A stretch of DNA of 64,000 nucleotides from Dyella silvae (GTDB lineage Bacteria; Pseudomonadota; Gammaproteobacteria; Xanthomonadales; Rhodanobacteraceae), in contig NZ_JAPJBQ010000008.1 of the NCBI RefSeq assembly GCF_026421305.1, forward strand, positions 124,001-188,000, in the 5' to 3' direction. Position 1 is the stretch's first letter; every line of letters begins with the position of its first letter. This document shows positions 10,919 to 25,164 of the stretch, piece after piece. Position numbers and translations under genes: made by a program. The notes under the pieces were generated by a model, which worked only from the letters and a program-made list of their open reading frames with translations, made no database searches and was not told where the DNA came from.

Positions 10919-11225
10919 GACTTTTCCAAGGCCGGGCGAGCGGACAACCATTGGCTCAGCGACGCGAGCTCGCCCGGCAAAGGTGAGCGCGTCGTGGCCA
11001 AAGGTCTCGCCGGGCGGTCGATACCGGAAGGTACCGAAGGCCATCCACGCCATGAAGCCGAAGCTTCAAGTCTGTTGACGCGGATTCCTCTGAAGCTGCA
11101 ACCCAGTGCGGGCCGCAAGGGGGTGAGGATGGCTACTCCCCAATGACAGTGATCGGAATGGTAACGGTGGCCATGCGCCCCAGCAAGCACCACCCCAAAG
11201 GGGAGATGAAGCATGGGCCCGATGG

Positions 11226-19260: not shown

Positions 19261-19905
19261 TCAGTTCTTGCGCGGCAGCAAGCCGCGCTCGGCCGCCATG
19301 CGATAGAGATCGAGTTCCGAACCCGCGCCCAGCTTGCCCATCAGACTGGCGCGGTGGATATAGACGGTTTTCTGGCCGATACCCAACTCACCCGCCACCT
19401 GCTTGGGCGCACGCCCCGCAGCCAGCAACAGGAACACTTCGCGCTCACGCGCCGTGAGCCGATGGATCGGATCGCGCGCTTCGCTCGGCCGCTCGGCACG
19501 GCGCTTGCGCAAATCCGAGCTGAGGAAACATTCGCCCTGCATCACGGCGCGCAGGCCGGCCACCAGCTCCTCCGGCGCCACGCCCTTGGTCACGTAACCA
19601 CTGGCGCCGCGACGCAGCGCCTCGGAAACGTAGGGTTCGCCGTCGTGCATGCTCAGCACCACGATGCGCGTGTCCGCCGCCACGCTGCGCAGATGTTCGA
19701 TCAACGGCAAGCCACTGCCATCGGGCAGTGAAAGATCGAGCGCCACGAGATCAGGCCGCCGCGTGCCAACCGCTTCTACCGCATCGTCGGCGCTGCGACA
19801 CTCCGCAACCACCTCCAGATCCGGTTCCAGTTCGATCAGCCGTTTGAACCCCTCGCGTACGATGGCATGGTCATCGACCAGGACGATGCTGTACATGGGC
19901 TGCAT
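19261..19905 (-). CDS. NarL/UhpA-family response regulator
   Basis: A 214-residue regulator. The receiver domain (about residues 5-120) has the acidic pair in IVLVDDHAIVREGF, the phospho-acceptor Asp in LVALDLSLPDGSGLP and the Lys in GYVTKGVAPEE. A C-terminal LuxR-type helix-turn-helix (about 148-205) contains LTAREREVFLLLAAGRAPKQ. It diverges from the MASE1 histidine kinase gene 44 bases away, its likely partner. A structured RNA lies on the far side of the kinase, so RNA control by this regulator is possible but unproven. Confidence 0.92.
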   Translation of the reverse strand: MQPMYSIVLVDDHAIVREGFKRLIELEPDLEVVAECRSADDAVEAVGTRRPDLVALDLSLPDGSGLPLIEHLRSVAADTRIVVLSMHDGEPYVSEALRRGASGYVTKGVAPEELVAGLRAVMQGECFLSSDLRKRRAERPSEARDPIHRLTAREREVFLLLAAGRAPKQVAGELGIGQKTVYIHRASLMGKLGAGSELDLYRMAAERGLLPRKN

Positions 19906-19949: not shown

Positions 19950-21560
19950 ATGTACCATCGCCCGATGCGATCTAAATCCTCTCTGCTGCCTGATTCCAGC
20001 CTCCTGCTGGGCATTGGCTACTTCCTGCTCTGGTTGCTGCTGTGGCCGACTGAACAGCCCTATTGGATGCTGCCCTACGGCCTGCGCTTCGGCGCCCTGC
20101 TGCTGGCTCCGGCCCGGACGTGGCCTTGGCTGCTGGTTGCGGAGTTCGCCGCCACTGGCCTGATCGCGGTGGTCCATGGCATGCCGATGGGCTGGACGGG
20201 CTTTTTGCTGGGTGAACTGCCCGAACCCATCGTGGTGGTGATCTGCCTGTGGCTGATGCGGCGCGCCAATCTCCACGCCAGTCTGCGCGATCCGGAAGAT
20301 GTCGCCCGCCTGCTGCTATCAGCAGCGTTCACCGTGGCCGCCACCACGGCTACCGATGCCGTGCTGCTGGCGCTGGTACACGCAAGCCCGACCTCCGACC
20401 TGATGATGCAGGCGCTGGGCCAGGACTTGTTGGGCAATTATGTCGGCGTGCTGCTGGTGGTGCCGCTGCTGGTCATGCTGTTTCGCGCGCGCATGGGCAA
20501 GCGCGCGTTCGGCCGGTTGCTGATGGATGGCCTGCTGGTGCTGCTGCCGTCGCTCGCGATACTGCTGGTGCTTTCCTCGCACGAAGCACCGCAACCTCAG
20601 TTCGCACGCGTGCTGTCGCTTGCCCCTGTGCTGTTTTTCGCCTTCCGACATGGCTGGCGCGGCGCCAGCCTGGCCATGCTGATATCCAGCCTGGGTATCA
20701 CCCTGGTGGACCATATCTCAGGTCACGGCGCCCCCGGCGCCGCGGGCGAATTGTTCCTTGCCGTGGCGGGTACCGGCGCCCTGATGCTTGGCTCCGCCAC
20801 CGATGCGTTACGCCGCAGCAGCGAGCGCGTGGCCGAGCAGAACGTCTATCTCGCCGCGGTGAATCGGCGCCTCGACCATCTCGCGCGCCAGCTACGCGAC
20901 GCTGCACGCGGCAACTTGCGCACTGAAGAAAACCAGCGCCGCCACATGGCGGCAGAACTCCACGACGAACTGGGCCAGAATCTCACGGCGATCCAGACCC
21001 ATCTAAAACTGGCCCAGTCGCGCCTGGCGCAGGCGGGCATGGACGACATCGGCATCTCGATCAACACCATTCTTGGCCACATGCGCCGCGCGCTGCATCG
21101 CCTGCTCGATGATCTGCGTCCTGCCGTACTGGACGAATTCGGCTTGCTGCGCGCGCTGGACGAGGGTCCGATCCGCGACCTGCTCAACGCCGCCGGCGTG
21201 GCCTATCGCACCGACCTGCACGGCGACCCGCGCCTGCTGGATGACGATACGCGTACGGTGGTCTATCGGCTGGTGCAGGAGAGCGCGACCAACGCGGTAA
21301 AGCACGCGCACGCCGACACCTTCCAGCTGCGCCTGCGCATTGGCGAGCGGCAAGGCGTAGCCCTGGCCCTGCTCGACATCCGCGACAACGGCATCGGCCT
21401 GCCCGCCCGCATGCCGCGCGGCGGCCGAGGCATGCAGGGCATGCGTGACCGGGTAACTTCGCTGGGTGGGCTTTTCCGGGTGCGCCCCGAGTCGCAGGGC
21501 GTTCACCTACGAATTTTGTTGCGAAGCAACACGCAAACTAGTGACGTAGCTCGCACTTAA
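19950..21560 (+). CDS. MASE1-type membrane sensor histidine kinase (UhpB-like)
   Basis: A 536-residue kinase. The first 300 residues form about eight transmembrane helices of MASE1 type. A short coiled coil follows, then a HisKA_3 dimerisation domain with the phospho-His in MAAELHDELGQNLTAI (about residue 335) and a HATPase domain with NAVKHAHA, RDNGIGLP and GRGMQGMRDRV. It is the divergent partner of the NarL/UhpA response regulator. An in-frame ATG six codons downstream is an alternative start. The structured RNA begins about 50 bases after its stop. Confidence 0.92.
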   Translation: MYHRPMRSKSSLLPDSSLLLGIGYFLLWLLLWPTEQPYWMLPYGLRFGALLLAPARTWPWLLVAEFAATGLIAVVHGMPMGWTGFLLGELPEPIVVVICLWLMRRANLHASLRDPEDVARLLLSAAFTVAATTATDAVLLALVHASPTSDLMMQALGQDLLGNYVGVLLVVPLLVMLFRARMGKRAFGRLLMDGLLVLLPSLAILLVLSSHEAPQPQFARVLSLAPVLFFAFRHGWRGASLAMLISSLGITLVDHISGHGAPGAAGELFLAVAGTGALMLGSATDALRRSSERVAEQNVYLAAVNRRLDHLARQLRDAARGNLRTEENQRRHMAAELHDELGQNLTAIQTHLKLAQSRLAQAGMDDIGISINTILGHMRRALHRLLDDLRPAVLDEFGLLRALDEGPIRDLLNAAGVAYRTDLHGDPRLLDDDTRTVVYRLVQESATNAVKHAHADTFQLRLRIGERQGVALALLDIRDNGIGLPARMPRGGRGMQGMRDRVTSLGGLFRVRPESQGVHLRILLRSNTQTSDVART

Positions 21561-21609
21561 GACGGTTACATAGGAAATATTCCGATACCCGGCGTGTGAA
21601 GGCTTCGTT

Positions 21610-21817
21610 ACGCTGGATCCATCGATGTGGGGGAGCCACCATCGCAAGATGGTGAGCCATGCCAACCGTGGGGACGGTGGGCATGAAGAACGGCAGGATG
21701 CCGTTCCGCCGGTATCGGTGGCAAAACCAGGTTACGCGAGCAACTCGCCTTTCTCTGGAGCCATCCGGTAACGGATCAAGCCGTAGGGCGGACAGGAGTC
21801 CTCCCGCGGCTTTTTTT
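21610..21817 (+). ncRNA. candidate CsrA/RsmA-sequestering small RNA or structured 3' UTR
   Basis: This stretch has no coding potential but a series of clear hairpins: CACCATC-GCAA-GATGGTG (21637-21654), CATGCC...GGCATG enclosing ACCGT-GGGG-ACGGT (21658-21685), AACGGCA-GGA-TGCCGTT (21689-21705), GCGAG-CAA-CTCGC (21736-21748), ATCCG-GTAA-CGGAT (21763-21776), and an intrinsic terminator (21778-21812) with seven T. The apical loop of the terminator is AGGA and the third hairpin loop is exactly GGA. More GGA triplets lie at 21615, 21632, 21672 and 21757. This architecture matches CsrB/RsmX-type RNAs. The 5' end is unknown; no clear promoter or GacA box was found, so it could also be processed from the kinase transcript. 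Confidence 0.6.
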
Positions 21818-21951: not shown

Positions 21952-22371
21952 TTACTTGTTGCGGTGTTTCGGCCGCACGTACAGCACCAGGCTGTGGTCC
22001 TCGATAACGTAGCCATGGCGGGCAGCAATTTCATGCTGCAGGCGCTCGATTTCCTCGCTGACGAACTCAATGACCTTTCCGCTGTCCACATCGATCATGT
22101 GGTCATGGTGCTTGCCGCGGTCCAGTTCGTAGACGGCCTGGCCGCCCTCGAAGTTGTGCTTGACGACGATGCCGGCTGCCTCGAACTGGGTCAGGACCCG
22201 GTAGACGGTGGCCAGCCCGATGTCTTCCTGGTCGGCCAGCAGGCGCTTGTAGACGTCTTCGGCGGTGAGGTGGTGGGGTGCCTCCTCGTCCTCGAAGATC
22301 TGCAGGATGCGCATGCGGGGATGGGTGACCTTAAGCCCGGCTTTGCGCAGTTCTTTGGTTTCCTGTTCCAT
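21952..22371 (-). CDS. fur: ferric uptake regulator Fur
   Basis: A 139-residue iron-responsive repressor. The N-terminal winged helix has GLKVTHPRMRILQIFE and LATVYRVLTQFEAAGIV. The C-terminal dimerisation domain has the metal site residues in KHHDHMIDVDSG and ends with the His-containing RPKHRNK tail. The second cysteine pair seen in some Fur proteins is missing, as in Xanthomonadaceae-type Fur. The start is MEQET, with GGAG six bases upstream; an upstream in-frame ATG is less likely. It diverges from bamE, as in many gammaproteobacteria. Confidence 0.96.
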   Translation of the reverse strand: MEQETKELRKAGLKVTHPRMRILQIFEDEEAPHHLTAEDVYKRLLADQEDIGLATVYRVLTQFEAAGIVVKHNFEGGQAVYELDRGKHHDHMIDVDSGKVIEFVSEEIERLQHEIAARHGYVIEDHSLVLYVRPKHRNK

Positions 22372-22447
22372 AGCAAGCTCCACGCACACGGCGCCACAAG
22401 GCCGTTAGTGTATCATCCGACACCTTTACGATCCGGACGCAACACGC

Positions 22448-23694: not shown

Positions 23695-24186
23695 ATGGCC
23701 AAGCCTAAGGACAAAGACAAAAACGCGGGCGGCACCATTGCGCTCAACAAGCGTGCGCGCCACGAGTACCACATCGATCAGCGCTTCGAGGCCGGCGTGG
23801 AGCTGCAAGGCTGGGAAGTGAAATCGCTGCGTGCCGGCCGCATCAACTTCGGCGACAGCTACGCCATGGTGATCCGCAATGAGATCCAGCTGGTGGGCAC
23901 GTCCATTCCTCCTCTGATCAGCGCCTCCACCCACGTGGTCGCCAATGACCGCCGCACGCGCAAACTGCTGCTGCATCGTGCTGAGATCGACCAGCTCATC
24001 GGCGCCGTCGAGCGCAAGGGCTACACCCTCATCCCCATGGCCATGTACTGGAAAGGCAACAAGGTGAAGGTGGAGATCGGCCTGGCCAAGGGCAAGCAGG
24101 CACACGACAAGCGCGACACCGAGAAAGAGCGCGACTGGCAGCGCGAAAAACAGCGCACCATGCGCGCCCACAACAAGCACGCCTGA
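23695..24186 (+). CDS. smpB: SsrA-binding protein SmpB
   Basis: A 163-residue OB-fold protein that delivers tmRNA to stalled ribosomes in trans-translation. It carries [31 protein letters not shown] and NFGDSYA. The basic C-terminal tail, [19 protein letters not shown], inserts in the empty mRNA channel. It diverges from ratA, and the ssrA RNA gene lies about 600 bases downstream on the same strand with one convergent gene between. Confidence 0.97.

Positions 24187-24812: not shown

Positions 24813-25164
<352 letters not shown>

Follow-up and report, generated by a model that had tools for sequence, protein, structure and literature searches.

What is encoded in the non-coding stretch between the gene of a MASE1-type sensor kinase and fur in Dyella silvae, and what controls it? 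A preliminary description of the window (the whole 64,000-nucleotide stretch of contig NZ_JAPJBQ010000008.1 that was analysed) proposed that positions 21610–21817 hold an RNA of the CsrB/RsmX type, which would titrate CsrA/RsmA through GGA-containing hairpin loops, and that the adjacent two-component system could be its controller. CsrA governs lifestyle switches in many bacteria. We have examined the structure of the predicted RNA, its GGA motifs, its promoter and its distribution among relatives of Dyella.

A conserved, structured candidate RNA between a kinase gene and fur

The features of the locus are collected in Table 1. The gene order recN, regulator, MASE1 kinase, RNA, fur is the same wherever the fetched flanks reach, and the kinase is immediately 5′ of the RNA in every locus whose fetched flank reaches that far.

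Table 1 Features of the locus, in window coordinates.
Feature	Position	Strand	Remarks
Response regulator, NarL/FixJ family, UhpA-like	19261–19905	−	Proposed activator; Pfam Response_reg and GerE
Sensor kinase, UhpB-like	19950–21560	+	MASE1–HisKA_3–HATPase (Pfam)
Inverted repeat TAGGAAATATTCCGA	21571–21585	+	Probable response-regulator site, centred about −43
Probable −10 hexamer TACGCT	21609–21614	+	Form TAnnnT, in the same position in nearly all loci
Small RNA gene	21621–21817	+	About 197 nt; probable CsrA/RsmA-sequestering RNA; predicted 5′ end
5′ module GATGTGGGGGAGCC	21624–21637	+	Near-invariant in the alignments; contains GGA 21632–21634
Hairpin P1	21635–21657	+	Mostly GNRA tetraloop
Hairpin P2	21658–21685	+	Loop segment GUGGGGAC; GGA 21672–21674
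Hairpin P3	21688–21706	+	AGGAU loop with closing pairs C-G, then G-C; GGA 21696–21698; typical of CsrA/RsmE sites
Long-range helix P4	21709–21717 with 21766–21774	+	Span 21709–21774; encloses P5
Hairpin P5	21736–21748	+	Inside P4
Intrinsic terminator	21779–21817	+	Loop ACAGGAGU with AGGA 21794–21797; seven T
fur	21952–22374	−	Convergent to the RNA; Pfam FUR; conserved downstream neighbour

The minimum free energy of positions 21610–21817 is −102.3 kcal/mol, compared with −78.3 ± 4.8 kcal/mol in dinucleotide shuffles (z = −5.0), and none of the 200 shuffles is as low. The 3′ end is a real G+C-rich stem followed by seven T residues (21811–21817). The fold and the terminator of the preliminary description are thereby borne out, and its count of six hairpins is roughly right: P1, P2, P3, P5 and the terminator are hairpins, with P4 as a long-range helix. 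The order of elements is 5′ module GAUGUGGGGGAGCC, P1, P2 with GUGGGGAC, P3 with AGGAN, P4 around P5, and the terminator with ACAGGAGU.

In an alignment of 71 non-redundant sequences (A2), 95.0% of the cells are paired, compared with 86.1% after shuffling and 36–47% with slid partners, and 34 base pairs show compensatory changes, compared with 21.6 after shuffling; none of the 500 shuffles reaches this number of pairs or matches any of the five structure measures, figures that are not probabilities, the sequences being related, although the slid control keeps this relatedness and is yet far lower. The seven-pair stem of P1 is paired in 99.6% of the cells, with compensatory changes at five pairs, and its loop is GCAA, GTGA, GAGA, or GCGA in most rows. 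The outer stem of P2 has compensatory changes at all six pairs. P3 has five such pairs, P4 six (88.5% of the cells paired), P5 three (92.5%), and the terminator seven.

These changes also bear on the possibility that the stretch is a short open reading frame rather than an RNA gene. A frame of 48 codons begins with an ATG at 21625, and this start is conserved. However, the lengths of the frames scatter from 13 codons upwards, the frames are not conserved, insertions and deletions do not come in threes (columns 2–100 vary from 85 to 91 in length), and the changes in the stems are compensatory, so that a reading frame is extremely improbable.

By blastn against 61 genomes, every one of the 19 congeners has the stretch, 11 of 17 other genomes of the family have all or some of it, and none of 24 genomes from other families of the order has it. 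A pattern scan of GTDB, with one genome per species, yielded 94 stretches. The named matches belong to Dyella, Rhodanobacter, Luteibacter, Frateuria, Fulvimonas, and Pinirhizobacter; a small number of metagenome-assembled genomes with different labels matched as well and have the same gene neighbourhood, and the scan found no homologue in Xanthomonas, Stenotrophomonas, or Lysobacter. With covariance model R1, the RNA is strongly found in 85 of 147 family genomes. The same model gave no strong match outside Rhodanobacteraceae among 348 genomes of the order, and among 369 genomes of the class it gave only the genome of the window (G000) and one 25-bit match, with strict filters, which can lose weak matches. 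In the genomes searched, the predicted RNA is conserved across, and confined to, the Rhodanobacteraceae, and its carriers are soil bacteria.

A short second match in G019 was rejected, the rest of the RNA not lying alongside. Two isolated weak matches, in two genomes of one genus (G082:C3:62390–62417 and G094:C9:67442–67469), cover no more of the model than its terminator hairpin; they are possibly further CsrA-type hairpins or chance matches.

The stretch matches no Rfam family at the gathering threshold, cis-acting elements included, and so no unrelated known RNA family either, a check that the preliminary description had called for. The nearest model is PrrB/RsmZ, with a score of 16.2 bits (cut-off 44; E = 0.16), and this model has no match in the loci of 17 relatives up to E = 10. 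The proposed CsrB/RsmX type is thus to be split: an RNA that works alike is supported, and membership of the CsrB/RsmX/Y/Z families is not. No account of this RNA was found in the open-access literature searched. Elsewhere in the window, Rfam models match a tmRNA gene (24813–25164, + strand; 200 bits), upstream of which lies an open reading frame (23695–24186) that is smpB-like in appearance, and a yybP-ykoY manganese riboswitch (10985–11153, − strand; 64 bits).

GGA motifs and the predicted CsrA partner

The preliminary description located the GGA motifs of the 5′ module, P2, P3, and the terminator correctly (Table 1). The GGA at 21615 is present as well, but it precedes the probable 5′ end and is thus probably outside the RNA, and the GGA at 21757 falls in a poorly conserved stretch. 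In the sequence from the window alone, GGA occurs seven times against an expectation of 5.0 (32 of 200 shuffles have at least as many), and twice within hairpin loops, compared with 0.35 expected (7 of 200 shuffles). Since this one sequence exceeds the expected GGA count only mildly, the argument depends on comparison. The number of GGA motifs by itself is near chance, but their conservation and their recurrence in diverged lineages, as judged from the sequences, go beyond it.

The loop of P3 contains GGA in 70 of the 71 aligned sequences. It is AGGAN or AAGGAN in 68 and AGGGA or AGGGAA in two, and it is without GGA in one (L060). The loop of the terminator contains GGA in all 71, as ACAGGAGU in 69 and as GCAGGAGC and ACAUGGAGU in the remaining two. 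Both loops lie outside the pattern used for fetching the sequences, and both retain A(N)GGA while their stems vary. The covariation analysis that had been suggested as a check on the hairpins and GGA loops therefore comes out in their favour: they are conserved among relatives, with compensatory changes.

The five-nucleotide AGGAX loop of P3 and its closure by C-G then G-C are the same as in SL3 of RsmZ (PMC4005645). A(N)GGAX sites may lack the N, at some cost in affinity (PMC4005645), and the P3 loop, which is either AGGAN or AAGGAN, varies in length in the manner of CsrA/RsmE sites. The consensus of CsrA sites from SELEX is RUACARGGAUGU (PMC7652899). Only two loops of the Dyella RNA are of the textbook kind, one of five and one of four nucleotides, and neither is the top-affinity ANGGAN hexaloop. 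Each RNA has 5 to 10 GGA motifs. The prospective partner is encoded in the same genome, by a single csrA gene that has a match in 58 of 61 relatives. Residues L4 and R44, which are critical in CsrA (PMC7652899), are in place in the Dyella protein, and its RNA-binding residues are intact.

The RNA could instead be a regulatory RNA that acts by base pairing, or on another protein partner, through GAUGUGGGGGAGCC and GUGGGGAC, with GGA as a mere by-product of G-richness. These two segments, one at the 5′ end and one in P2, are the most invariant parts of the RNA (the P2 loop segment is identical in all 71 sequences). The bases of the 5′ module belonged to the fetch pattern, and unselected blastn homologues retain them as well. 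The invariance of GAUGUGGGGGAGCC and GUGGGGAC exceeds the requirement of CsrA binding, and GGG is, like GGA, enriched in loops. However, among loop trinucleotides GGA ranks above GGG, by a clear margin in the diverged lineages described below, the loops of P3 and of the terminator keep A(N)GGA on varying stems, and the diverged genera have canonical sites such as ACAAGGACGU. We regard this alternative as unlikely. The wider G-rich modules GATGTGGGGGAGCC (21624–21637) and GTGGGGAC (21668–21675) are likewise more invariant than CsrA binding needs.

Binding of CsrA by GGA loops is further suggested by loci in which the sequence itself has diverged. The regulator is present, and a strong R1 match absent, in 13 family genomes. 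All 13 loci were fetched, two of them cut short by the end of the contig. Nine of the remaining 11 (genera g2 and g43) have, between kinase and fur, the inverted repeat and then a predicted hairpin RNA that is rich in GGA and too different in sequence for alignment with that of the window. The loops are GGCACAAGGACGUGCC, which contains ACANGGANGU, and GCAGGAAGC in g2, and AUCAGGAUGAU and GGUCAGGACGAUC in g43; GGCACAAGGACGUGCC, CCGCAGGAAGCG, AUCAGGAUGAU, and GGUCAGGACGAUC match CsrA/Rsm sites. GGA is the most enriched trinucleotide in predicted hairpin loops, both in six diverged sequences (13 versus 2.1) and over all 13 sequences (27 versus 5.3). No other finding argues as strongly for the retention of GGA loops as such and not of a particular sequence. 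One diverged relative (L152) has many GGA motifs, none of them in a predicted hairpin loop.

Of the other two among the 11 loci, L160 (genome G084) has orthologues of the regulator and the kinase and no recognisable repeat or GGA-containing RNA downstream; fur is absent from the fetched stretch. The other, L166, has a variant of the repeat and then a protein gene.

The promoter and its candidate activator

The preliminary description missed a conserved promoter. The sequence TAGGAA-N3-TTCC or a close variant is found in all 124 loci, 52–54 nt upstream of an invariant GATGTGG, and in the window the stop codon of the kinase gene lies about 10 bases 5′ of the repeat. Among the variants, TAAGAATTTTTCTTA and TAGGAATTATTCCTA are symmetric, and in the TAAGAATTTTTCTTA locus both halves have changed together. 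The −10 hexamer takes the forms TAGGAT, TACGAT, TACGCT, TAGCAT, and similar. The repeat and the hexamer would place the 5′ end of the RNA near 21621, and the presence of this promoter in all 124 loci argues for the independent transcription that had been proposed.

The promoter also speaks to the possibility that the stretch is a cis-acting element (a 3′ UTR of the kinase gene with a terminator, an attenuator, or a riboswitch) and not a free RNA. The stretch does lie directly 3′ of the kinase gene in the same orientation. Yet its own promoter is located beyond the kinase stop codon, no cis-acting element of Rfam matches, and the next gene, fur, is convergent and has its own terminator (21927–21898, − strand, by terminator scan). 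A cis-acting element is thus very improbable, and fur has no role in the mechanism proposed here.

Each of the 85 family genomes that have the RNA also encodes an orthologue of the adjacent response regulator, and the 49 family genomes without the regulator have no strong RNA match. In none of 20 Dyella genomes does any match to the repeat surpass the one at the RNA promoter, and no second repeat site recurs across the genus in these genomes. A candidate second site with two mismatches (G000:C17:112585) was rejected, having no counterpart in other Dyella genomes. The earlier suggestion that the adjacent two-component system controls the RNA gains support from the invariant linkage and from the co-occurrence with the regulator, both of which point to such control. 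The regulator scores 127.8 bits with the UvrY/SirA/GacA model (NF007018; cut-off 280) and 150.5 bits with the NCBIfam model of UhpA (cut-off 258), and the kinase scores 178.4 bits with that of UhpB (cut-off 408), so that all three scores are below the cut-offs.

A CsrA-sequestering RNA might also be driven by a different activator, such as a GacA-like regulator elsewhere in the genome. A GacA/UvrY-like response regulator is indeed encoded on the same contig outside the window (G000:C21:98696–99331; 223.9 bits, below the cut-off of 280), and it is found in nearly all relatives. However, these include G023, which is without the RNA, whereas the adjacent regulator tracks the RNA. The GacA upstream activating site is TGTAAG-N6-CTTACA (PMC9911603); it is absent at the RNA promoter, and across Dyella genomes its frequency is about as low as that of control sites. 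In addition, a distant relative of the adjacent regulator (locus L166) precedes a variant of the repeat, TAGAAATTTTCTA. The chance of a different activator is accordingly small. In L166 (genome G114), the distant two-component relative and the variant repeat are followed by an open reading frame instead of an RNA, and the start of this frame resembles a signal peptide; perhaps the same type of regulator has a protein target there.

A proposed circuit and its relation to known systems

We estimate a probability of roughly three in four that the locus encodes a CsrA/RsmA-sequestering RNA activated by the neighbouring UhpB/UhpA-like two-component system. The observations behind this estimate are made at the level of sequence: the covarying structure, the GGA loops, the terminator, the promoter with its repeat, the linkage, the co-occurrence, and the intact CsrA. 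In response to a presumed signal, the MASE1 kinase would phosphorylate the UhpA/NarL-type regulator, which would then bind the TAGGAA-N3-TTCC site near −43 and activate the RNA. The RNA, transcribed independently, would bind the single CsrA/RsmA through GGA motifs, mainly in hairpin loops (P3, the terminator, and probably P2, together with the 5′ GGGGGAG), and would take CsrA off its mRNA targets. Conserved GGA hairpin loops, a promoter and terminator of its own, and a csrA gene in the same genome are features expected of an RNA of this functional kind.

Under this reading, the locus would be a self-contained counterpart of GacS–GacA–RsmX/Y/Z. As with RsmX, RsmY, and RsmZ of Pseudomonas, the RNA is short, has several hairpins with A(N)GGA in their loops and ends in an intrinsic terminator, and it is preceded by an inverted repeat as the site, here predicted, of a response regulator of the NarL family. 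In contrast to the Gac/Rsm system, the promoter repeat is TAGGAA-N3-TTCC rather than TGTAAG-N6-CTTACA, and the regulator and kinase are UhpA/UhpB-like and encoded beside the RNA, which is longer than RsmX, RsmY, and RsmZ and has a long-range helix and invariant G-rich modules. The proposed titration of CsrA by GGA loops and the two-component control are shared with CsrB/CsrC and BarA/UvrY of E. coli, but CsrB has 22 GGA motifs (PMC7652899), compared with 5 to 10 here, and there is no match in sequence or model.

RsmU of Xanthomonas campestris is processed from the comEA 3′ UTR and has been reported only in Xanthomonas (PMC7694677). It binds RsmA, as is proposed for the Dyella RNA, comes from a related bacterial family and likewise stands outside the classic RNA families. 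The Dyella RNA differs in having its own promoter, in lying between the MASE1 kinase gene and fur, and in its restriction to Rhodanobacteraceae; the different locus and clade set it apart from RsmU. With UhpB/UhpA, the system shares a kinase with a MASE1-type membrane part and HisKA_3 and a NarL/FixJ-type regulator, but an RNA would take the place of the sugar-phosphate transporter as its target.

The 5′ module and the P2 loop are conserved beyond the need of a CsrA site, and on this basis a wider reading can be put forward tentatively: the kinase–regulator–RNA cassette may have replaced GacS/GacA–Rsm in most of the family, with an RNA that is both a CsrA sponge and, through its G-rich core (GAUGUGGGGGAGCC and GUGGGGAC), a ligand of a second partner. 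We hold this to be possible but doubtful.

For the Xanthomonas relatives, RsmU is the sole known antagonist RNA in the open literature searched. If the main reading is correct, Dyella, Rhodanobacter, Luteibacter, Frateuria, and their relatives would have a Csr antagonist of their own, and the two-component system that probably drives it would be named. The wiring from a two-component system to a CsrA sponge could then be built with a non-Gac system encoded beside its RNA.
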